DNA of 36,814 nucleotides, taken from assembly GCA_021818865.1 (NCBI GenBank), contig JAKASX010000029.1, forward strand, positions 1 through 36,814, given 5' to 3'. The DNA comes from Acidobacteriota bacterium. GTDB taxonomy: Bacteria; Acidobacteriota; Terriglobia; Acidiferrales; UBA7541. The position numbers and the translations under genes were made by a program. The notes beneath the pieces were generated by a model, which worked only from the letters and a program-made list of their open reading frames with translations, was not told the origin of the DNA and searched no databases. Below are positions 3,001-16,056 of the stretch, piece after piece (positions within the stretch are counted from its first letter, which is position 1; the number at the start of each line of letters is the position of its first letter).

Positions 3001-3210
3001 AGCTCGGGCATCCTGCCTGTGGTTGCCCCAAGTCCCGCTGTCATGCTGAGCCCCGGTTCCCGGGGGTGTTTCGCGACGACCGGAGGGAGTCCCGACGCAC
3101 TTCGCCGGGAAGCATCCCGCTGCTACACCGCACCTGGCACAGCCATCCCGCCTGCGTGTGTATTTCGCCCTCGGGTGGCACAGGCATCTTGCCTGTGGCG
3201 CCTGCGCCCT
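3001..3210. repeat. dispersed intergenic hairpin repeat block, copy A
   Basis: A non-coding stretch built from repeat parts that recur at 22.2 and 25.1 kb. It holds TCATGCTGAGCCCC (from 3041), an expanded GC-rich insert with its own CCCCGG/CCGGGG stem, GGAAGCATCCCGCTGCTACACCGCACCTGGC, and then a perfect hairpin, CACAGGCA-TCT-TGCCTGTG (3179-3197). A shorter GGCA-TCC-TGCC version lies at 3007-3017. It separates the XRE gene from the convergent thioesterase gene. Confidence 0.7.
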
Positions 3211-3726
3211 CTAACGCTTCTTTCCAGCGCCTTTGTCGACTCTCGCCGTTCGCTTCCACTGCTTTCCGTCCCGCACGCTCGCCTTCGCGAAGAAACTTTC
3301 CGTCTGCACCACCGCGCGAAACACGCGTCCGCGCCCCAGCAGTTCGCGTCCCGCGAGCGCTTCGACGTCGAACGCCAGAAATCTGCCGTCCATCCCGGTG
3401 AGCCGCGCATGCGCCCGCACGCGCGCACCCTCCGGCGCGGCTTTCAAATGGTCCACTTCGATTCGCGTCCCCACGCTGATCGTGCCTTTCGCGAGTCGCG
3501 GCCGTATCGCCAGCGCAGCGGCGGTTTCCATCATCGCGATCATCGCCGGCGTCGAAAGCACGGCCGGCAATCGCTCGTCGTAATGAGCGATCGTCCATTC
3601 ATGCGGCACGACTCTCGTGAAATTCGCCGCGAGTCCAAGCCGGATCGCCGGCGTTTTGCGCGCCTTCTTCTGCTTCACCGCGCCTCCTTTTTGACCTTCG
3701 TGTTTCGCAACGTCTCGCTTCATCAC
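3211..3726 (-). CDS. FlK-like hot-dog thioesterase
   Basis: 171 residues. The core matches the fluoroacetyl-CoA thioesterase (FlK) branch of hot-dog fold acyl-CoA thioesterases: LSTPAMIAMMETAA followed by VGTRIEVDHLKAAPEG. The three FlK catalytic residues are Thr42, Glu50 and His76. Here Thr59, Glu67 and His93 have the same 8- and 26-residue spacing, so the active-site triad is probably intact. The substrate is unknown; relatives are mostly generic acyl-CoA thioesterases and fluoroacetate specificity is not implied. A basic Lys/Arg-rich N-terminal extension of about 25 residues precedes the domain, and a start closer to it is possible. The start codon overlaps the stop of the upstream phosphodiesterase gene by four bases, so the two are translationally coupled. 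Confidence 0.8.
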   Translation of the reverse strand: MMKRDVAKHEGQKGGAVKQKKARKTPAIRLGLAANFTRVVPHEWTIAHYDERLPAVLSTPAMIAMMETAAALAIRPRLAKGTISVGTRIEVDHLKAAPEGARVRAHARLTGMDGRFLAFDVEALAGRELLGRGRVFRAVVQTESFFAKASVRDGKQWKRTARVDKGAGKKR

Positions 3727-4445
3727 CGCTCGCCCGCCGCCTGCGCCACGCGCTCGGGCCAGTCGCTCATGATACCGTCAACGCCCAGTTCGATCATCCG
3801 GCGAATATCGCCGGAATCGTTCACTGTCCATGCGACCACCCCTAATCCCGCCTTTCGCGCCCGCCGCATCATCCGCTGATTGATTCGTTCGTGCCATGAA
3901 GCGAGAATCGCCGCTCCCACGCGCCGCGCCGGCCCGATCGCCGGGCCCCTGCGGCCCACAAGCAGCGCCGTCCGGAGCGACGGTTCGATGACGCGCATCC
4001 GTGCGAGCGCCCTCGCGCTGAACGACAGCACCATCACGCGTCCCAGCGCCTGCCGCTCGCGCAATACTCGCGCCAGCGCGATCGCCTGCGCCGATTTCAG
4101 CCGCGCTTTCAATTCCAGATAAATGCCGAAATCGAGCCATTCGGCCAGGTCCAAAGCCTCTTCGAGCGTCGGTACCCGCTCGCGCACGTAGCTCGGAGCA
4201 AACCACGCGCCCGCATCGAGCCGCCGCAGCTCGGCGAGCGTGAAATCCGCCACACGCCCGCGTCCGTTCGTCGTGTGATTCACACGCGCGTCGTGGATCA
4301 GCACGAACCGGGCGTCGCGCGTCACGCGCAAATCCGTTTCGATGAACCGCGCGCCCAATTCGACGGCGCGACGAAAAGCCGCGAGCGTATTTTCCGGCCT
4401 GTGCGCCGAAGCGCCGCGATGTGCGATCACCTGGGGTGCAGCCAT
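3723..4445 (-). CDS. ugpQ: glycerophosphodiester phosphodiesterase
   Basis: 240 residues. The enzyme hydrolyses glycerophosphodiesters to glycerol 3-phosphate and an alcohol. GDPD motifs are all visible: HRGAS (residues 9-13, catalytic His9 and Arg10), ENTLAAF, the metal-binding ETD (Glu36, Asp38), HDARVNHTTNG (catalytic His51), and YLELK (Glu111). It lacks a signal peptide, so it is a cytoplasmic UgpQ-like form and not the periplasmic GlpQ. The TIM-barrel length of about 240 is typical. It is first in a two-gene minus-strand operon with the thioesterase. Together they might recycle lipid-derived diesters and acyl thioesters, which is inference from adjacency only. Confidence 0.92.
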   Translation of the reverse strand: MAAPQVIAHRGASAHRPENTLAAFRRAVELGARFIETDLRVTRDARFVLIHDARVNHTTNGRGRVADFTLAELRRLDAGAWFAPSYVRERVPTLEEALDLAEWLDFGIYLELKARLKSAQAIALARVLRERQALGRVMVLSFSARALARMRVIEPSLRTALLVGRRGPAIGPARRVGAAILASWHERINQRMMRRARKAGLGVVAWTVNDSGDIRRMIELGVDGIMSDWPERVAQAAGER

Positions 4446-4489
4446 GACAAGTTCATCTTACGAGGAAAGACGCGCTTTGGGAGCCTGGC

Positions 4490-4798
4490 TCACTTTGATT
4501 CCATCGCAGGAGGTTTGATCTGAATAAATCTCGTTTTCCAAAAGTGACGGACGGCCAGAGCTTCCAAGGTCTGAGGGAGTACAGAAATATTTCTTGTAGT
4601 GGCTCGCGGATTGACGCGTGTCGCCGCGAACCTCAGGAGCACGCCCAGGACTGAAAAGACCAGAAAAAATCCGGTTCTTCCGCGAACGGTGGCAATGAGC
4701 GGTTTTCCACAATGAGGACAGTTTCCTGTAGGGAAACCTTCGGATGAATTCTCAAAAGGAGTATTGAGTTCACCGTTGCATGTGGGGCATCGGGGCAT
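4490..4798 (-). CDS. small zinc-ribbon membrane protein, hypothetical
   Basis: 102 residues from ATG 4798. MPRCPTCNGEL and NCPHCGKPL give two CxxC knuckles 26 residues apart, typical of a zinc ribbon, followed by one likely membrane helix (FFLVFSVLGVLLRFAA). The remaining 45 residues are not obviously structured, and the base composition is lower in GC than the neighbours, so the 3' part may be degraded or frameshifted. A longer frame starts at 4855. Function unknown; zinc-ribbon plus membrane-helix proteins of this size are common and uncharacterised. Confidence 0.5.
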   Translation of the reverse strand: MPRCPTCNGELNTPFENSSEGFPTGNCPHCGKPLIATVRGRTGFFLVFSVLGVLLRFAATRVNPRATTRNISVLPQTLEALAVRHFWKTRFIQIKPPAMESK

Positions 4799-4921
4799 TT
4801 TCGCTTGCATTCCTGCCCGGATATTCAAGCATGGAATGGGCAAAACTAACAGCATCGAACTCCAGTTCTTGAAGGCTGAAAAGGACGCATGCTCTCCTGA
4901 GTATAGGGTTGCGGTGGCGTC

Positions 4922-4950
4922 TTGACTTTCGCTTTTTTTTCGCCTATGCT
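4922..4950 (+). promoter_or_regulatory. strong sigma70-like promoter for dinB-dnaE
   Basis: TTGACT (4922-4927), a 17-base spacer containing a run of eight T, and TATGCT (4945-4950). This is the best promoter match in the window. It lies about 75 bases ahead of the dinB start. I see no obvious LexA box (neither CTGT-N8-ACAG nor GAAC-N4-GTTC) overlapping it. Confidence 0.6.
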
Positions 4951-5028
4951 GCTCTTGCCGGTTTGCCTCGGCCCTTGGCCCTCCCTTCCGCGCCGGGACG
5001 CCTAGCGATCCACAGCGAGGTCCATGCC

Positions 5029-6255
5029 ATGAACGTTGCCACGAACGTTCGCACGCGCCGCATTGTCCACGTCGACGTGGACGCCTTTTTCGCTTCGGTC
5101 GAGCAGGTGCTCGATCCGCGGCTGCGCGGGCGCCCCGTGCTGGTCGGCCGCGGCGTGGTGGCTTCGGCGAGTTACGAAGCGAAAGCGCGCGGAGTGCGCA
5201 CGGCGATGTCGTTTCGCCAGGCTCTGCGGCTCTGTCCGGACGCGGTGGTGGTTGCGGGCGCCTACGAGCACTACGCCGATTACGGCGCGCGCGTGCGGCG
5301 CATTCTGGAAAATTTCACGCCGTCGGTGGAATCCGCTTCGCTCGACGATTTCTATCTGGATTTCACCGGCGCCGAGCGTTTGTATCCGGATTGGCCGGCG
5401 GTGCTGCGGCGGCTGGCGCGTCGCGTCGAAAACGAAACCGGCCTCAGCGTTTCGGTGGGTGCGGCCACGTCGAAATTGATTGCGGCGATCGCTTCGCGGC
5501 TTGAGCGGCCGCGAGGTTTCTCCGTCATCGCGCCCGGCGACGAGCAGCGTTTTCTGGATCCGCTTCCGGTTGAAAAACTTCACGGCGTGGGCCGCGTGCA
5601 CGCACAGTCGCTCGGCGAGCGCGGCGTGCATACGGTCGGCGATTTGCGCCGGTTGCCGCTCGGCGTGCTGGTGGCCGCATTCGGGCCGGCCGTCGGGCGC
5701 CAATTGTGGGAACGCGCGCGCGGCCAGGATCCGCGCGCCGTGGAAGGGCTGGCCGTGCCGAAGTCGGTTTCGCGCGAAACGACGATTGCCGGCGGCACGA
5801 TCGATCTCGAATTGCTCGCCGGCCTTTTGGAATATCTGGCCGAGCGCGTTGCCTCGACGCTTCGCTCGATCGGCATGCAGGCGCGCGCCCTCACGCTGAA
5901 ATTCCGCTACGCCGATTCTTTTTCCGCCGCGCGCGAAGCTCGGCTCGATCCGCCGACGAACGACGAAAAGGCGCTACTCGCGCGAGCGATGGAACTTTTC
6001 GACACGCTCTATACGCGCCGCGTCGTGCTCGGCTGGATCGGCTTGAGCGTCGGGAGCCTCGAACCCGATCACCGGCAAAACGACCTGTTCGACGGGGAAT
6101 CGAACCGGCGCTGGTATCTGAATCGCGGCGTGGACGCGGTACGCGGGCGTTTCGGCTGGAACGCGGTGTTTTACGGCCGCGGCCTCGTGCTGCGCCGCCA
6201 TTACGCGACGAAACCCTCGGGCCTGGTGCTTTCGACGCCCTGTTTATCGCGGTAG
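5029..6255 (+). CDS. dinB: Y-family DNA polymerase (DinB/Pol IV-like)
   Basis: 408 residues. Translesion polymerase that copies past damaged bases with low fidelity. The palm carries HVDVDAFFASVEQ (metal ligand Asp16), ASYEAKARGVRTAM, and SLDDFYLDFTG at 104-114. In Pol IV the last motif is normally SIDEAYLD; here the second catalytic carboxylate is Asp107 in place of Glu. Thumb HhH motifs (LHGVGRVHAQSLGERGVHTVGDL) and the little-finger domain (KSVSRETT...) follow. QNDLF at 350-354 fits the beta-clamp binding consensus QL[SD]LF. ATG 5029 has GAGG at 5017-5020; an in-frame ATG at 4909 would precede the promoter. The dnaE gene begins 46 bases downstream. ImuB is the alternative, but the carboxylates and the clamp motif favour an active DinB. 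Confidence 0.92.
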   Translation: MNVATNVRTRRIVHVDVDAFFASVEQVLDPRLRGRPVLVGRGVVASASYEAKARGVRTAMSFRQALRLCPDAVVVAGAYEHYADYGARVRRILENFTPSVESASLDDFYLDFTGAERLYPDWPAVLRRLARRVENETGLSVSVGAATSKLIAAIASRLERPRGFSVIAPGDEQRFLDPLPVEKLHGVGRVHAQSLGERGVHTVGDLRRLPLGVLVAAFGPAVGRQLWERARGQDPRAVEGLAVPKSVSRETTIAGGTIDLELLAGLLEYLAERVASTLRSIGMQARALTLKFRYADSFSAAREARLDPPTNDEKALLARAMELFDTLYTRRVVLGWIGLSVGSLEPDHRQNDLFDGESNRRWYLNRGVDAVRGRFGWNAVFYGRGLVLRRHYATKPSGLVLSTPCLSR

Positions 6256-6301
6256 AGGACGCGCTGCGCGCACCCTCCGCGCGCCGCCGGGTGAATCGGC
6301 C

Positions 6302-9300
6302 ATGTTCGTTCATCTGCATTGCCACAGCCAATATTCGTTCCTGCGCGGCGTCGGGTCGCCCGCGGCGCTGGTGGCCGCGGCCGCGCGCCAGGCGATGCCC
6401 GCCGTCGCGCTCACCGATACCGACGGCCTCTACGCCGCGATTCCGTTCTATCAGGCGGCGCGCGAAGCGGGTATTCGTCCGGTTCTCGGCGCGGTATTGC
6501 CGGCAGGAGAGCCCGGCGAGGAATTTCCGCTCCTTTTGCTCGTCGCAAATAGGGAAGGCTACGCGAATCTGTGCCGCCTGGTGACGCGGCGCCAGCTCGA
6601 CGCGCGCCCGCTCCCGTGGGCTCTGCTCGATCTCGAACGCGAAGGCCTCATCGCGCTCTACGCGCCGGAACGAATCGCGCCGCCCGCGGCATCCGGCGCC
6701 AAATCCCGCGCAAGCGCTACCGCGTCGCCAATTCCGCAGCCGAAAAACCCAAAATCCCGCATCGCGCGTCTCAAGGAAATTTTCGGCAAAACTTTTTACC
6801 TCGAAACGCATCATTTTCCCGCGAGCGGCCGGGGTAACCTGCGCGAAGCCCTCGCGCTTTCCCGCTCTTTCGATCTCCCGCTCGCCGCGACGAACAACGT
6901 TCATTTCCTCGCGCCCGGCGAATTCCTCGATCATCGCGTGGTCAACGCGATTCGCACCGGCCGCCTGCTCAGCCGCATTGCGCCGCCGGAAATCGCCGAT
7001 GCCGAGGCTTGGTTCAAACCGTCGGGCGCGATGGAGCGCGCCTTCGCCGACCACCCCGAAGCGTTGCGCGCGACGCTCGAAATCGCCGAGCGCGCCGATT
7101 GCAAGCTGGAACTGGGAAAACCGATTTTGCCGTCGTTTCCGGTGCCCGAGGGCGAAACGCCGTTTTCCTATCTGTGGGAGCTGTGTTTCCGCGGCGCGCG
7201 CAAACGCTACCATCCGCCCGGTCCCGAAGTGATCGCGCGGCTCACGCGCGAGCTCGAAGTGATCGATCGCCTGGGCCTGGCGCCGTATTTCCTGCTCGTT
7301 TGGGATATCGTGCGTGAAGCGCGGCGCCGCGGCGTGCCCGCGGCGGGGCGCGGTTCGGCCGCCGGCTCGATGGTGAGCTATTGCCTGGGCATTTCGCGCG
7401 TCTGCCCGTTGCGCTGGGGGCTCTATTTCGAGCGCTTCCTCAACGAGCAGCGCGGCGACGTGCCGGATATCGATCTCGATCTGTGCGGCGCGCGCCGCGA
7501 TGAAATGCTCGACTACGTCTACGGGCGCTGGGGCGCCGACCACGTGGCGATGATCGGCAGTTTCATCACGATGCGCGCGCGGCTCGCCGTGCGCGAAGTG
7601 GCGAAGGTCTTCGGCGTGGCGCCGGGCGAGGTGAACCGCTTCACGCGCCGGCTGCCGCACCGGCCGGTGCGCGAAATCATGCAGGCGATTCGCGTGCTGC
7701 CGCAATGCCGCTCGCTGCCCGTGGACGAGGAGCCGTGGCGCACGATTCTCGACGTCGCATTGCGGCTCGACGAAACCCCGCGCCACATGGGCATCCATCC
7801 CTGTGGCACGGTGATCGCGCCGGGGCCGCTCGCCGCGCTCGTGCCGCTGGAAAAAGCGACGAAAGGCATCGTCGTCACGCAATACGACATGAACGCGGTG
7901 GAATCGCTCGGCCTGATCAAAATGGATCTGCTCGGCCAGCGCGGCCTCACCACCATTTCCCTGGCGCTCGCCGAAATCGAGCGCTCCGCCGGCCGCAAAA
8001 TCGATTTCGACGCGATTCCCGAGCGCGATTCCGCGACCTCCGCGATGCTCGCCGCGGGCCGCACGATGGGCGTTTTCCAGATCGAATCGCCGGGCCTGCG
8101 CGGCTTGCTGCGGCTGATGCGCGCCCGCACGATGGACCAGCTCTCGATCGCGCTCGCGATCATTCGCCCCGGCGCGTCCGAATACGGCGCCAAGGAAACC
8201 TTCGTGCGCCGCCTGCGCGGCCGGGAGCCGGTGCGCTACGCCCATCCTTCGCTCGAACCGATCCTCCGCGAAACGCTCGGCGTCTGCGTCTATCAGGAGC
8301 AGGTGATGCGCATCGCGCAGATCGCCGGTTCGCTCTCGCTCGCCGAAGCCGATCTGGTGCGCCGCTCCAGCGCGAAATTCGCCGACGAGCGCGAGCGCGC
8401 CCGCCTGCGCGCGAAATTCTTGAAAGCGGCGGCGCGGCTGGGCCTGGCGGGCGAATCGCTCGAAGATGTCTGGCAGATGGTGGAAAAATTCGCCGGCTTC
8501 GGTTTCTGCAAGGCCCACGCGGCCACCTACGCCGATCTCGCCTTTCGCATCGCCTGGCTGAAGGCGCATTATCCGGCGGAATTTCTCGCCGCGATGTGCA
8601 GCTCCGGCGCCGGCTTCTATCACGTCTCCGCCTACGTCGAGGAAGCCAAGCGCTGGGGCATTCCCGTGCTGCTGCCTTCGGTGAATCATTCCCGCGCCGA
8701 ATACAGCGTCGAGCCGCTCGCCGCGGGCGAAACCGGCGCAAACGGAAACGGCTCGGCGTCGGCGAAAAAAGCCCTGCGTATCGGCCTGATGCAGGTGAAG
8801 GGGCTCGGCGCGGAAACGATCGCCGCCATCCTCGCCGCGCGCCAGCGGGAAGGGAATTACCGCTCGATCGAGGATTTCCTGCGCCGCGTTCGCGCCGGCC
8901 GCGATGAACTCACCGCGCTCGTTCGCTGCGGCGCTTTCGACGATGTTCCCACCGGCGAAATTTCCGCCGCATCCGGCGGCGCGGATTCCGCGTCGCCGCA
9001 CGCGATCACGCGCCCCATGCGCCTTTGGCAGCTCCATCTCGCGCTCGCGCGTCGCGCGGCGGAGTCCGCCAAAGCGCCTGGCGCCCGCCCCGGCGATCTT
9101 TTCCCCGGTGCCGAACCCGCGGAATCCGCCGGCGATTCGGGCGAAATCCCGCTGCTCGCCGATTACGACCAGGAGCAGCACCTCGCCGCCGAACTCGAAT
9201 TGCTCGAAGTCGCCGCGAGCGGCCATCCGCTCGATGCGCTGCCGCGCAACGGCGAAATCTGGAGCACGGAACTCGCGCGCCACGTCGGCCGCCGCGTCCA

Positions 9301-9541
9301 GCTGCTCGGCTGGCTGGTGACGTTTCGCCCGGTCGGCACCAAGGATTACCGCAATATGATGTTCTTGACGCTCGAGGATCAGCGCGGCATTTACGAAGCC
9401 GTGCTGTTTCCCGACGCCTACGAGCGTTACGCCGGCCTGATTTTCGAAACGCGCCTGCTCCGCGTTTCCGGCCGCGTCGAAGACGAAGCCCAAATCCACT
9501 GCGACAAAATCGAGCGTCTGAGCGCGGGCTCCGGTTCGTGA
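6302..9541 (+). CDS. dnaE2: DNA polymerase III alpha-type subunit, DnaE2-like
   Basis: 1079 residues. C-family polymerase. An N-terminal PHP domain (HLHCHSQYSFLRG at 4-16) is followed by the palm with VPDIDLD (Asp389, Asp391) and KMDLLG (Asp542), the three catalytic aspartates. Helix-hairpin-helix (GLGAETIAAILAARQREG) and an OB-fold (VQLLGWLVTFRPVGTKDYRNMMFLTLEDQRG) close the protein. Replicative DnaE1 is usually about 1160 residues or longer, and the length plus FLRG and PDIDLD resemble the error-prone DnaE2 group. The linkage to a Y-family polymerase recalls the imuA-imuB-dnaE2 mutasome. A role in damage-induced synthesis is therefore likely but inferred; it could still be the only alpha subunit of this genome. 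Long antisense frames opposite it are artefacts of high GC. Confidence 0.85.
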   Translation: MFVHLHCHSQYSFLRGVGSPAALVAAAARQAMPAVALTDTDGLYAAIPFYQAAREAGIRPVLGAVLPAGEPGEEFPLLLLVANREGYANLCRLVTRRQLDARPLPWALLDLEREGLIALYAPERIAPPAASGAKSRASATASPIPQPKNPKSRIARLKEIFGKTFYLETHHFPASGRGNLREALALSRSFDLPLAATNNVHFLAPGEFLDHRVVNAIRTGRLLSRIAPPEIADAEAWFKPSGAMERAFADHPEALRATLEIAERADCKLELGKPILPSFPVPEGETPFSYLWELCFRGARKRYHPPGPEVIARLTRELEVIDRLGLAPYFLLVWDIVREARRRGVPAAGRGSAAGSMVSYCLGISRVCPLRWGLYFERFLNEQRGDVPDIDLDLCGARRDEMLDYVYGRWGADHVAMIGSFITMRARLAVREVAKVFGVAPGEVNRFTRRLPHRPVREIMQAIRVLPQCRSLPVDEEPWRTILDVALRLDETPRHMGIHPCGTVIAPGPLAALVPLEKATKGIVVTQYDMNAVESLGLIKMDLLGQRGLTTISLALAEIERSAGRKIDFDAIPERDSATSAMLAAGRTMGVFQIESPGLRGLLRLMRARTMDQLSIALAIIRPGASEYGAKETFVRRLRGREPVRYAHPSLEPILRETLGVCVYQEQVMRIAQIAGSLSLAEADLVRRSSAKFADERERARLRAKFLKAAARLGLAGESLEDVWQMVEKFAGFGFCKAHAATYADLAFRIAWLKAHYPAEFLAAMCSSGAGFYHVSAYVEEAKRWGIPVLLPSVNHSRAEYSVEPLAAGETGANGNGSASAKKALRIGLMQVKGLGAETIAAILAARQREGNYRSIEDFLRRVRAGRDELTALVRCGAFDDVPTGEISAASGGADSASPHAITRPMRLWQLHLALARRAAESAKAPGARPGDLFPGAEPAESAGDSGEIPLLADYDQEQHLAAELELLEVAASGHPLDALPRNGEIWSTELARHVGRRVQLLGWLVTFRPVGTKDYRNMMFLTLEDQRGIYEAVLFPDAYERYAGLIFETRLLRVSGRVEDEAQIHCDKIERLSAGSGS

Positions 9542-9601: not shown

Positions 9602-9859
9602 ATGGAAACGAAACTTTCCAGCAAGGGCCAGGTGGTGCTTCCGGGTCCGATTCGCCGCCGGTTGGGCCTTCAGCCCGGCGACGCTCTCGAAGCGAACGTG
9701 CGGGCCGGGCGCGTGGTGCTGACGCCGCGCCGGAAACGCATACGGAAGGCGTCCCTACGCACCGATCCCACGACGCATCTGCCGGTGCTTACGGCCGGCC
9801 CCGCCGCGCCGAAGCTGACCAGCAAGCAGGTGCGCGAAATCCTCACGGAATTTCCATGA
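9602..9859 (+). CDS. AbrB-family antitoxin (VapB-like)
   Basis: 85 residues. The N-terminal 45 residues form a SpoVT-AbrB swapped-hairpin DNA-binding domain: METKLSSKGQVVLPGPIRRRLGLQPGD followed by LEANVRAGRVVLTPRR. The C-terminal part, ending LTSKQVREILTEFP, would wrap the toxin. It neutralises the PIN toxin encoded directly downstream and probably represses the operon through the GTAAGA/TCTTAC palindrome touching its start codon. Its stop codon overlaps the toxin ATG by four bases (ATGA), which couples translation and helps keep antitoxin in excess. No strong ribosome-binding site is visible because the palindrome occupies that position. Confidence 0.9.
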   Translation: METKLSSKGQVVLPGPIRRRLGLQPGDALEANVRAGRVVLTPRRKRIRKASLRTDPTTHLPVLTAGPAAPKLTSKQVREILTEFP

Positions 9860-10266
9860 AGTATCTTCTGGACGTGAATGCTCTGGTCGCGCTCGGTTTT
9901 TTCGAGCACGAATTCCACCTGCGCGTCGCCCGCTGGGTCGCGCAAGTGTCGTCCAAGGAAGCTCCCGAACTGGCCACTTGCGCGATCACCGAACTCGGAT
10001 TCGTCCGAGTCCTCGCGCAGGCGCCGGGCTACGGAATCGCCGTTTCTCAGGCGCGCAGTCTTCTACTCCGCATGAAACAGCACGAACAGGTCAAGTTCGC
10101 GTTCTTTGCCGACGACCTCAACATCTCCCATCTGCCCGCATGGGTGAAAACTCCCAGGCAAACGACCGACGGCCATCTCGCCATGCTCGCCGCAGCCAAT
10201 GGCGCGGTACTGGCGACGCTCGACCGTAAAATTCCCCGCGCGTTCCTGATTCCCGCCGCCGGATAA
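9856..10266 (+). CDS. vapC: PIN-domain ribonuclease toxin (VapC-like)
   Basis: 136 residues. PIN-domain endoribonuclease, the toxin of the pair. The conserved acidic residues are in place: Asp6 in MKYLLDVNALVAL, Glu46 in ATCAITELGFVRVL, Asp105 in TTDGHLAMLAAANGA, and Asp123 in LATLDRKI. Together they bind the Mg2+ or Mn2+ used for RNA cleavage. VapC toxins typically cut tRNA or the sarcin-ricin loop; the target here is unknown. The length matches the TA_VapC_Mtb-type families of about 130-145 residues. The gene is intact, with no truncation. It lies just after the dnaE gene, with no integrase nearby. Confidence 0.92.
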   Translation: MKYLLDVNALVALGFFEHEFHLRVARWVAQVSSKEAPELATCAITELGFVRVLAQAPGYGIAVSQARSLLLRMKQHEQVKFAFFADDLNISHLPAWVKTPRQTTDGHLAMLAAANGAVLATLDRKIPRAFLIPAAG

Positions 10267-12588: not shown

Positions 12589-15500
12589 TTAGCCTCCCGA
12601 TTCCAGCTCCTGCAATACGCTTGTGGCCGCGGCCGCCGGGCTGCCGGTTTCCGGCTTCCATTCGATCCAGAGCACGCCAGACGGATCGAGGCTCGCCCCG
12701 CGCCGCGACCTCACCAGCCGCACCAAGCGTTCCGGCCGGACCGGCGTATCGCCGTGAAAGTGCAGCGCTAGGCGATGGTTGCGCCGCTCGACGCCGGAAA
12801 TCAGCAGCCGCTCGCAGGCGGATTTCAGCATCGCGTATTCCACCAGATTCATCACCGATCGCGGAGGCGGCCCGAAACGGTCTTCGAGTTCGCGCAGCGC
12901 ATCCTGTCGTTCGCGCTCGGTGGCGATCGAGGCGATCCGCTTGTACGCGCGCAGCCGCGCGTTTTCGCCGGGAATGTAGCCCGAGGGAATGCGCACGTCG
13001 AGGCCCAGATTCAGCGTCACGCGCACTTCCGGCCGCGAAGCTTCGCCCTTCAGCCGCGCCACCGCCTGTTCGAGCATCTGGCAATACAGATCGAATCCCA
13101 CCGCGTCCACGTGGCCGTGCTGCTCGCGCCCCAGCAGATTGCCCGCGCCGCGCAATTCCAGGTCGAGCGCGGCGATGCGGAATCCGGCCCCGAGCTCGCT
13201 GAATTCCTTGAGCGCGGCCAGCCGCTGCCGCGCTTCCGAGGAAAGCGCCGCCGCCGTCGGCACCAGCAGATATGCATACGCCCGCTCTTCCGACCGTCCC
13301 ACGCGCCCGCGCAGCTGATAAAGCTCGGCCAGGCCGAAGCGGTCGGCGCGATTGATCAGGATGGTGTTTGCTCGCGGGATATCGAGCCCGTTTTCGATGA
13401 TCGTCGTCGAAACCAGAATATCGGCTTCGTGACGGATGAATTTCAGCATCACTTCTTCCAGCTGATGCTCGTTCATCTGTCCGTGCCCCACCACGATTCG
13501 CGCGCGCGGCACCAGCTTGTGAATCTTGTCGGCGAACGTCGCAATCGTTTCCACGCGGTTGTGCACGAAAAACACCTGCCCGCCGCGGTCCATCTCGCGT
13601 TCGACCGCCCGCCGCACCAGCTCCTCGTCGAAAGGCGCCACGATCGTCTGAATCGCCAGCCGTCCGCGTGGTGGCGTTTCGATCGTCGACATATCGCGCA
13701 ACCCGGCGAGCGACATATGCAGCGTGCGCGGAATCGGCGTCGCCGACATCGTCAGCACGTCCACGTTCCGCCGTAGCTCCTTCAGCCGCTCCTTGTGCGA
13801 AACGCCGAACCGCTGCTCTTCATCCACCACCAGCAGCCCCAGATCGTGGAAGCGGACGTCCCGCGAGAGCAGCCGGTGCGTTCCGATGAGGATGTCGATT
13901 TTTCCCGCTTCCAGATCCTCCAGTATGCGTTTCGCCTCGCGCCGGCTGCGCAACCGGCTGAGCATTTCGATCCGCACGGGAAACGCGGCCATGCGCCGGC
14001 GAAACGTCTCGTAATGCTGGAAAACGAGCACCGTCGTCGGCGCGAGCACGGCCGCCTGCCGCCCGTCGGCGACCACCTTGAACGCGGCGCGCACCGCGAC
14101 TTCCGTTTTGCCGTACCCCACGTCGCCGCACAGCAGCCGGTCCATCGGCAGCGGCGATTCCAGATCGCGTTTCACGTCTTCGATCGCGCGCTGCTGGTCG
14201 GGCGTCTCGTCGTAGGGAAAGGAATCCTCGAGTTCGCGTTGCCACGGCGTATCGCCGGGATAGCGATGGCCTTCGGCGGTTTTGCGCTGCGCGTAAAGCT
14301 GCAGCAGCTTTTCCGCCAAGTCGTCCACCGACCGCTTCACCCGCTTTTTTCGCGCCGTCCACACCGTCCCGCCGAGCTTGTCGAGCGGAGGCTTCGCTTC
14401 GCCGATCGTGCGGTATTTCTGCACCAGGTCCACGCGGGCCAGCGGCACGTAAAGCCGCGCGTCGTCGGCGTAGCGAAGCAGCATGAATTCGCCGCTCGAT
14501 CCATCCGCCGAAATCTGCCGCAATCCTTCGAACGCGCCGATGCCGTGGTCCACGTGCACTACGAAATCGCCCGGTTTCAAGTCGGAAAAATCGCTCGAAA
14601 ATCCCGCGGCGCGCCGCTTCCGTGGCCGCTCGATTTCCGCGTCGAAAAGGTCCGCGTAACCGTAGATAATCAGGTCGAGCTCGGGAAACCGCACGCCTTC
14701 TGCCAGCGGAATGCGCGCCAGGACCACCCCCGCCGCGCTTTCCTCGCCCGTTTCGGCCAGCCGCGCGGCGCCGGGCCCCTGCTCGAATTCGCCCAGCCGG
14801 CACGGCGTTTCATATTCGTGGCACAGATCCATCATCCGTTCGAGTTCGCCCGCGCTCGCCGCGGAAATCACCACCGCTTCGCCCGCCTCTAGCCGCGCGC
14901 GCAGCTCCGCCATGAACGGGGCCACGTTTCCGTGGTACCGCGCGGTCGGCTGGCTCGAAAGGACCGCTTGCGGCAACTCGCCCACGGCCAGCCGCACGAG
15001 TTCCAGCCGCCTCACGCCGTCGAGTGTGCGTTCCCACTCATTGAGGGGCATCGAATAGACGGTGGGAGCCGCCGGCGCGCTCGCTTCGTCGTGGTGCCGC
15101 GCTTCATTCCACGATTCTTCCATCCGCTCCCATAGCTTTGTCGCCGCGTCGGCGATCGCCGTCGGCTCGTCCACCACCACCAGAGGATCGGTAAGCAGAT
15201 CGAAAATCGTTTTCCGCGGAGGGTCGAGCGCCGCCGCGCGAAATTCCCATCCCGGTAGCAGCAGATCGGGTCCGCTGTGGATTTCCTCCTCCGCCGTCGC
15301 CACGCCCACCGCCGCCATTTGCGCCGCCGGCAGCGGGCATTCGCCGATCGGCGGCAAGACGACGCGTTCGAGCGGCCCAATCGAGCGCTGCGTCTCCGCG
15401 TCGAATTCCCGCAGCGATTCCACCGTGTCGCCAAAGAGCTCGATGCGCACCGGGCGCTTCGCGTCCGGTGGAAAAACGTCCACGATGCCGCCGCGCACCG

Positions 15501-16056
15501 CGAATTGTCCCGGCATTTCCGCCGTGTCCTGCCGGTCGTAGCCCGCGCGAGCCAGATGCTCCACCAACTCTTCGAGCGGAATCGACTGATCGCGCATTAC
15601 CTCCCGCGCGAGCCCGCGATAAAATTCGGCGTCGCGCGTTCGCGCCATCGCCGCGCCCACCGGCGCGATCACCGCGCGCGCCTGTCCCGAAGCGATCTGC
15701 CAGAGCGCCATCGCGCGTTCGCTCGAAATTTCCGGATGCGGGGAAAGTTTTTGGTAGGGAAGAACGTCGCTCGCCGGCAGCGTCACCACCTCGCCTGCCG
15801 CGCGTCCCGCGAGGATGCGATAGAAATACCGCAGCGGCTCCGCGAGGCGTTCGGCCCGGTCATTCGATTCCACCAGCAGCACCACCGGCCGGCCGATCGT
15901 CGCCGCCGCGTGCGCCGTCACCAGCACCTTCGCCGCGTCGGTCAGCCCAGCGAGCGTCGCTTGGCCGCGTTCCTCGCGCGCCGCGCCCAGCGCGCCGCTC
16001 ACCGCGCGGTCGCGTCCCACGCGGGCGAACCATTCGGCGAGCAAGGGCAGAATCAT
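12589..16056 (-). CDS. mfd: transcription-repair coupling factor
   Basis: 1155 residues, the usual full length. Mfd releases RNA polymerase stalled at DNA lesions and recruits UvrA. The domain order is intact: UvrB-like N-terminal module (about 1-330), the RNA polymerase interaction domain ([17 protein letters not shown], near residue 500), and the translocase, with Walker [10 protein letters not shown] near residues 642-650, the DEEQ box near 744, the helicase motif [12 protein letters not shown], and the TRG/relay region. The C-terminal module follows. It overlaps the rfaE2 stop by four bases and sits one base before the surA-like gene. The mfd-surA pairing is often seen in acidobacteria and deltaproteobacteria; this statement is from general knowledge and was not checked here. 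Confidence 0.97.

Follow-up and report, generated by a model that had tools for sequence, protein, structure and literature searches.

A putative LexA-controlled dinB-dnaE operon in Candidatus Acidiferrales whose Y-family polymerase keeps its catalytic carboxylates

In many bacteria a mutasome replaces Pol V, and why the Y-family member of this mutasome is dead is a standing question. It bears on a dinB-dnaE gene pair at positions 4922-9541 of the window, by which we mean the whole analyzed stretch of 36,814 nucleotides, contig C160 of a 3.97-Mb genome bin (metagenome-assembled genome, 95% complete) from a soil-type Acidobacteriota of Candidatus (Ca.) Acidiferrales. What controls this pair, and do both of its polymerases copy DNA? 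We consider it likely that the cassette is a DNA-damage-inducible lesion-bypass operon under LexA. The two genes would probably be switched on by DNA damage, and their products would bypass lesions without the usual ImuA and ImuB helpers.

An earlier note, made from the sequence of the window, had described a Y-family gene with a QNDLF motif, followed after 46 bases by the gene of a 1079-residue C-family polymerase. These coordinates and motifs were correct, and both genes lie on the + strand. The open reading frame of the Y-family gene opens at a TTG (4909), and its likely start is the ATG at 5029, preceded by GAGG at 5017-5020. The elements of the cassette are the following.

4922-4950, + strand: sigma-70-like promoter TTGACT-N17-TATGCT (cassette-family consensus TTGACTTTCGCTTTTTnTTCGCCTATAnT), recurring in orthologous promoters.
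4928-4946, + strand: putative LexA operator, a direct repeat TTCGC-N6-TTCGC followed by CTA, between -35 and -10; exact match.
5029-6255, + strand: DinB-type Y-family polymerase of 408 residues (IMS/Pol IV by Pfam and NCBIfam; AlphaFold model).
6076-6090, + strand: QNDLF beta-clamp-binding motif, read from the sequence and conserved with variations in orthologs.
6103-6183, + strand: RecA N-terminus (RecA-NT)-like tail motif NRRWYLNRGVDAVRGRFGWNAVFYGRG, modelled largely as a helix (356-375).
6220-6252, + strand: C-terminal peptide GLVLSTPCLSR (11 residues), invariant in aligned cassette orthologs and modelled as flexible.
6302-9541, + strand: C-family polymerase of 1079 residues (Pol III alpha by Pfam and NCBIfam).

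On their own, the promoter hexamers TTGACT-N17-TATGCT occur at chance level (2 found, 0.9 expected), but recurrence of the entire element in orthologous promoters raises the match far above chance. In the window, the promoter spacer reads TTCGC-N6-TTCGCCTA. Alignment of the lexA upstream regions of relatives revealed a common element, TTGAC-n-TTCGC-N6-TTCGCCTA, and the window promoter, TTGACTTTCGCTTTTTTTTCGCCTATGCT, is this same element. Among the cassette upstream regions that reach the full 700 bp (n=29), 27 contain an exact TTCGC-N6-TTCGC and the remaining 2 differ by one mismatch (shuffled mean 0.005). Of 30 related lexA loci, 29 have the operator, as do 11 of the 14 loci with canonical imu cassettes; in three of the latter, worked through with coordinates (L067, L075 and L078) it lies just ahead of imuA, in opposite orientation. 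One lexA from another acidobacterial family (f25) also bears the box. The genome of the window contains the 19-bp pattern exactly three times: once at lexA, once at a gene encoding 172 residues and once at the dinB-dnaE cassette. Since the operator is common to the upstream regions of the cassette, lexA and imu genes, LexA/SOS control is the best reading of the cassette promoter. A box of the lexA-promoter type does lie ahead of dinB, where the earlier note had advised looking for a LexA box. The one strong promoter of that note does stand at 4922-4950, but it is most likely a LexA-repressed promoter, with LexA as the predicted ligand of its spacer.

Two observations concern the box itself. 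The third genomic copy (L226, G000:C158:15685-15703) lies ahead of the 172-residue gene, whose product resembles, by eye, the DinB/YfiT-like four-helix damage-inducible family. The lexA promoters of family f22 (L182 and L183) differ in their repeated element, GTGTATAnnTTTACACTAT, which may point to a second kind of LexA box.

The gene pair is conserved in relatives. Window-type DnaE is present in about 36 of the 95 genomes of the order (hand count from the table), with roughly 60-80% identity over matched stretches, and in 4 of the 5 genomes of the genus. Named relatives with a cassette DnaE (54-78% identity) are almost all Acidobacteriota group 2 or Ca. Acidiferrales, and one record is labelled Betaproteobacteria. 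Wherever a contig holds both genes, dinB is adjacent to dnaE, upstream and on the same strand. The gap ranges from 44 to 326 bp, save in two genomes with about 1.95 kb inserted. Beyond the order, in 396 genomes of the phylum, the best DinB homologs go down to about 42% identity. Several other acidobacterial families possess lexA-polY-dnaE operons in the same gene order, with active-looking Y-family proteins (SLDE/SIDE). In most of these operons (L174-L188, L193), the DnaE is a highly divergent protein of roughly 945 residues that keeps its aspartates and sits on a very long branch. These operons indicate that lexA, polY and dnaE are linked in their own right.

The inserted segments have similar gene content. 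In L117 (3094-4934), the insert encodes TcmP, a three-Cys-motif partner protein, and a radical SAM protein resembling spore photoproduct lyase; in L108, similar genes stand between polY and dnaE (3083-4941). The insert is a possible ultraviolet-repair add-on. At L192 (1784-6058, genome G210), a 1424-residue open frame ends in a DinB-type polymerase and is either a fusion or a chance frame.

The genome was also searched for further DnaE, Y-family, ImuA and LexA genes. A second, full-length DnaE was found on contig C123 (1345 bits); in the tree it sits among the acidobacterial members of the DnaE1 clade, and it is the replicative enzyme. The genome has one lexA, at C104:47156, and the window contains neither imuA nor lexA, as the earlier note had said. 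Only two Y-family genes were detected in the genome, with a model that does detect the ImuB proteins of relatives, and neither is an ImuB. Searching the genome with a relative's ImuA matched RecA only, and ImuA was rejected as a candidate. Canonical DnaE2 was not found in the genome either: DnaE1 and the window protein are the only matches to NF004225, both under the cut-off. Across the order, canonical DnaE2 occurs in 26 of the 95 genomes, about 6 of which also hold the cassette (about 6 of the 36 cassette genomes; Fisher p = 0.10). The two systems are partly alternative, not exclusive.

The cassette DnaE consists of PHP, palm/fingers, HhH and OB domains (OB at 999-1071 of 1079) and lacks a C-terminal domain beyond them. 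Its catalytic aspartates, D389, D391 and D542, are conserved. At the seven PHP metal positions examined, it reads HHQTVNH versus HHDHEDH in the DnaE1 of the same genome; this site is degenerate, and PHP proofreading by the cassette DnaE is therefore unlikely. Against NF004225, the curated model of error-prone DnaE2, the protein scores 672 bits for a cut-off of 939, and it is 38% identical to DnaE1 and about 34% to canonical DnaE2. Phylogenetic trees place the cassette DnaEs in one clade (support 100), which joins the DnaEs encoded by the f22 lexA-polY-dnaE operons and by a Desulfosarcina ovata plasmid (99). Two further groups are separate from this larger one: DnaE1 (100), and ImuAB-linked DnaE2 together with Streptomyces DnaE2B (99). 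Approximately unbiased (AU) tests on the LG+G4 set rejected an exclusive grouping of the cassette with DnaE1 (p-AU 0.0006), as well as grouping with Streptomyces DnaE2B (p-AU 0.001) and with ImuAB-linked DnaE2 (p-AU 6e-9). On the mixture-model set, which comprised other rows, grouping with ImuAB-linked DnaE2 was not rejected (p-AU 0.16). Deep relations are limited by the trees being unrooted (without a PolC/DnaE3 root) and by the long branch of the D. ovata row, and the DnaE2B rows are those of Streptomyces.

Two identities were rejected for this protein: canonical DnaE2, by the score below the curated cut-off and the position outside that clade, and a DnaE1 duplicate, by the tree tests and the domain content. 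In the broad sense, DnaE2 proteins lack a C-terminal domain beyond the OB fold, have a degenerate PHP site and are additional to a replicative DnaE1 (Timinskas 2013, PMC3919608); the cassette DnaE shows these same features. The resemblance to error-prone DnaE2 proposed in the earlier note calls for amendment: the protein is an extra DnaE lying apart from the replicative DnaE1, but it is no canonical DnaE2, as it scores under the cut-off and has a clade of its own.

The Y-family protein retains its carboxylates, as had been noticed at first: no aligned cassette member lacks D16, D106 or D107, or the FF steric-gate region. The third carboxylate is Asp (SLDD) in all of these, where E. coli Pol IV and the solo DinB of the same genome have Glu (SLDE). 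The AlphaFold model shows a confident, well-formed DinB fold (mean predicted local distance difference test score 87.6) with the last 15 residues flexible. The protein terminates 53 residues past the clamp motif and has no ImuB-C domain. Its tail aligns with the RecA N-terminus in the same register as that of UmuC, but the resemblance is weak: an ungapped shuffle test gave p=0.02 to E. coli RecA and p=0.13 to the RecA of the same genome, which is suggestive only, and a hidden Markov model profile search did not reach RecA. The distant lexA-polY-dnaE operons encode Y-family proteins with a similar ending, RGFxLKTASLT[RK], the shared pattern being G-h-h-L-x-T-x-x-L-[ST]-[RK]; the f22 members and the solo DinB are without it. 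Because the GLVLSTPCLSR end is conserved though predicted to be flexible, it may be a docking peptide. In the Y-family tree, sisterhood of the cassette proteins and those of the lexA operons of other families was left without resolution.

These features are best explained by the following sequence of events. LexA, encoded elsewhere in the genome, probably keeps the promoter shut by occupying TTCGC-N6-TTCGC between -35 and -10. Upon DNA damage, RecA would become active, LexA would be cleaved, and dinB and dnaE would be expressed together. The Y-family polymerase would be brought to the beta clamp through QNDLF and probably to RecA through the RecA-NT-like tail. There it might either insert nucleotides opposite lesions or act as a scaffold recruiting the second polymerase. 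The DnaE-type polymerase may then extend from, or replace, the Y-family polymerase, a role suggested by its intact polymerase aspartates and the lack of a recognizable proofreading site.

The concept of an active Y-family polymerase working with DnaE2 is not new, because such a coupling without ImuA has been described for Bacteroidetes (Timinskas and Venclovas 2019, PMC6511836), and a 2026 survey (Timinskas et al.) names that system DnaE2B-PolY-RecA (PMC12926913). Searching the survey's main text turned up no mention of Acidobacteria. The likeness of our cassette, which is from Acidobacteriota, to the Bacteroidetes system is drawn from the published description. DnaE2B genomes are reported to be without ImuA and ImuB, and so is the genome of the window, whereas some cassette genomes carry canonical DnaE2. 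The documented features that set the cassette apart are the LexA-type operator, the SLDD site and the GLVLSTPCLSR end. A search for Geobacter-type DnaE2B through the phylum of L130 returned no new one, the matches being DnaE1-like by length and rank, and none of the 60 matches listed in a plasmid search was a Bacteroidota DnaE2B.

Like the ImuA-ImuB-DnaE2 (ImuC) mutasome, or DnaE2A, the cassette has a second DnaE, in which the PHP site is degenerate and the C-terminal domain missing; it also has a Y-family partner bearing a clamp motif, and the box ahead of the operon is common to it and lexA. Unlike that mutasome, it is without ImuA, its partner is neither inactivated nor equipped with ImuB-C, and its DnaE belongs to a different clade. 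Streptomyces DinB2-DnaE2 (DnaE2B-iPolY-RecA) also consists of two paired genes, for a Y-family protein and for a DnaE, but there the partner is inactive, and its DnaE does not group with that of the cassette. The Geobacter sulfurreducens lexA-imuB-C-polY operon (PMC6511836) has a lexA-linked active Y-family polymerase; it differs in having a standalone ImuB-C and no DnaE2. The plasmid operon lexA-DUF72-polY-dnaE of D. ovata (L058, 2339-8114) is lexA-linked, and its DnaE groups with the cassette clade. Its Y-family partner, unlike that of the cassette, has lost the carboxylates. Operons linking lexA to a Y-family gene and a dnaE are therefore recurrent, and living and dead partners both occur. 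In L058, the Y-family protein and the DnaE are annotated as hypothetical protein and Pol III alpha.

How the two polymerases might share the work can be read in several ways. One would be a two-polymerase mutasome, in which LexA governs the joint production of an active Y-family polymerase and a C-family polymerase whose lineage is distinct from DnaE1, ImuAB-linked DnaE2 and Streptomyces DnaE2. Attached to the clamp and to RecA, the two would work as a single machine made up of an inserter and an extender. We put this forward tentatively, as a possibility that could well prove wrong. If it were true, the invariant C-terminal peptide of DinB would dock DnaE, and the lineage would show a route from an active partner to an ImuB-like dead one. 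It is somewhat unlikely that the two are merely co-regulated SOS enzymes, one Pol IV-like and the other DnaE2-like, that work independently and form no joint complex. The evidence for their association is indeed a shared promoter and proximity, and the intergenic gap varies, even to the extent of the inserted genes. The long-term linkage across the order, the gene order maintained in other families, and the invariance of a flexible C-terminal peptide, as expected for docking, nevertheless argue against full independence.

The Y-family protein might instead be an ImuB-like platform that retains the carboxylates yet serves chiefly to bring DnaE to the clamp, with DnaE copying all lesions; we regard this as unlikely. 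The replacement of SLDE by SLDD in all aligned members would fit such a role, as would the sister lineage in D. ovata, which pairs a related DnaE and lexA with a Y-family partner whose active site is destroyed. A purely structural role is thus workable with this type of DnaE. Relaxed selection would not preserve the three aspartates and the steric-gate region in every aligned member, and the modelled core is a well-formed DinB fold. A housekeeping role of the DnaE in replication, or its origin as a DnaE1 duplicate, behind a generic strong promoter is highly improbable. Its slightly higher identity to DnaE1 than to canonical DnaE2 is outweighed by the separate full DnaE1, the rejected tree grouping, the missing C-terminal domain with the degenerate PHP site, and the fifth genome of the genus, which lives without the cassette DnaE; the 19-bp box, moreover, has only three exact genomic copies, and a generic promoter was rejected because the box recurs at orthologous positions.

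Some points weigh against a LexA-controlled lesion-bypass operon. Regulation, binding and mutagenic role are deduced from sequence, and the LexA box of Ca. Acidiferrales was itself derived in the present analysis and has no experimental origin. Co-transcription is no proof of a complex. The change from Glu to Asp at the third catalytic position could lower activity, and the RecA-NT resemblance is statistically weak. With a bin 95% complete, the absences of ImuA, ImuB and canonical DnaE2 are not absolute.

A LexA-box operon with a live-looking Y-family partner, together with its dead-partner sister in D. ovata, would permit a direct test of the division of labor between polymerases and of the route to ImuB. 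The proposed direct-repeat box, TTCGC-N6-TTCGC, also provides a means to map the SOS regulon in an uncultured soil group.

Two neighboring loci complete the description of the window. At 9602-10266, beginning 60 bp after dnaE, are genes for a MazE/AbrB-type antitoxin and a PIN-domain protein, together a VapBC-like toxin-antitoxin pair. Further downstream, on the opposite strand, lies the gene for the transcription-repair coupling factor Mfd (12589-16056, - strand), adjoined by genes for a SurA-like peptidyl-prolyl isomerase and an HD-OB protein.

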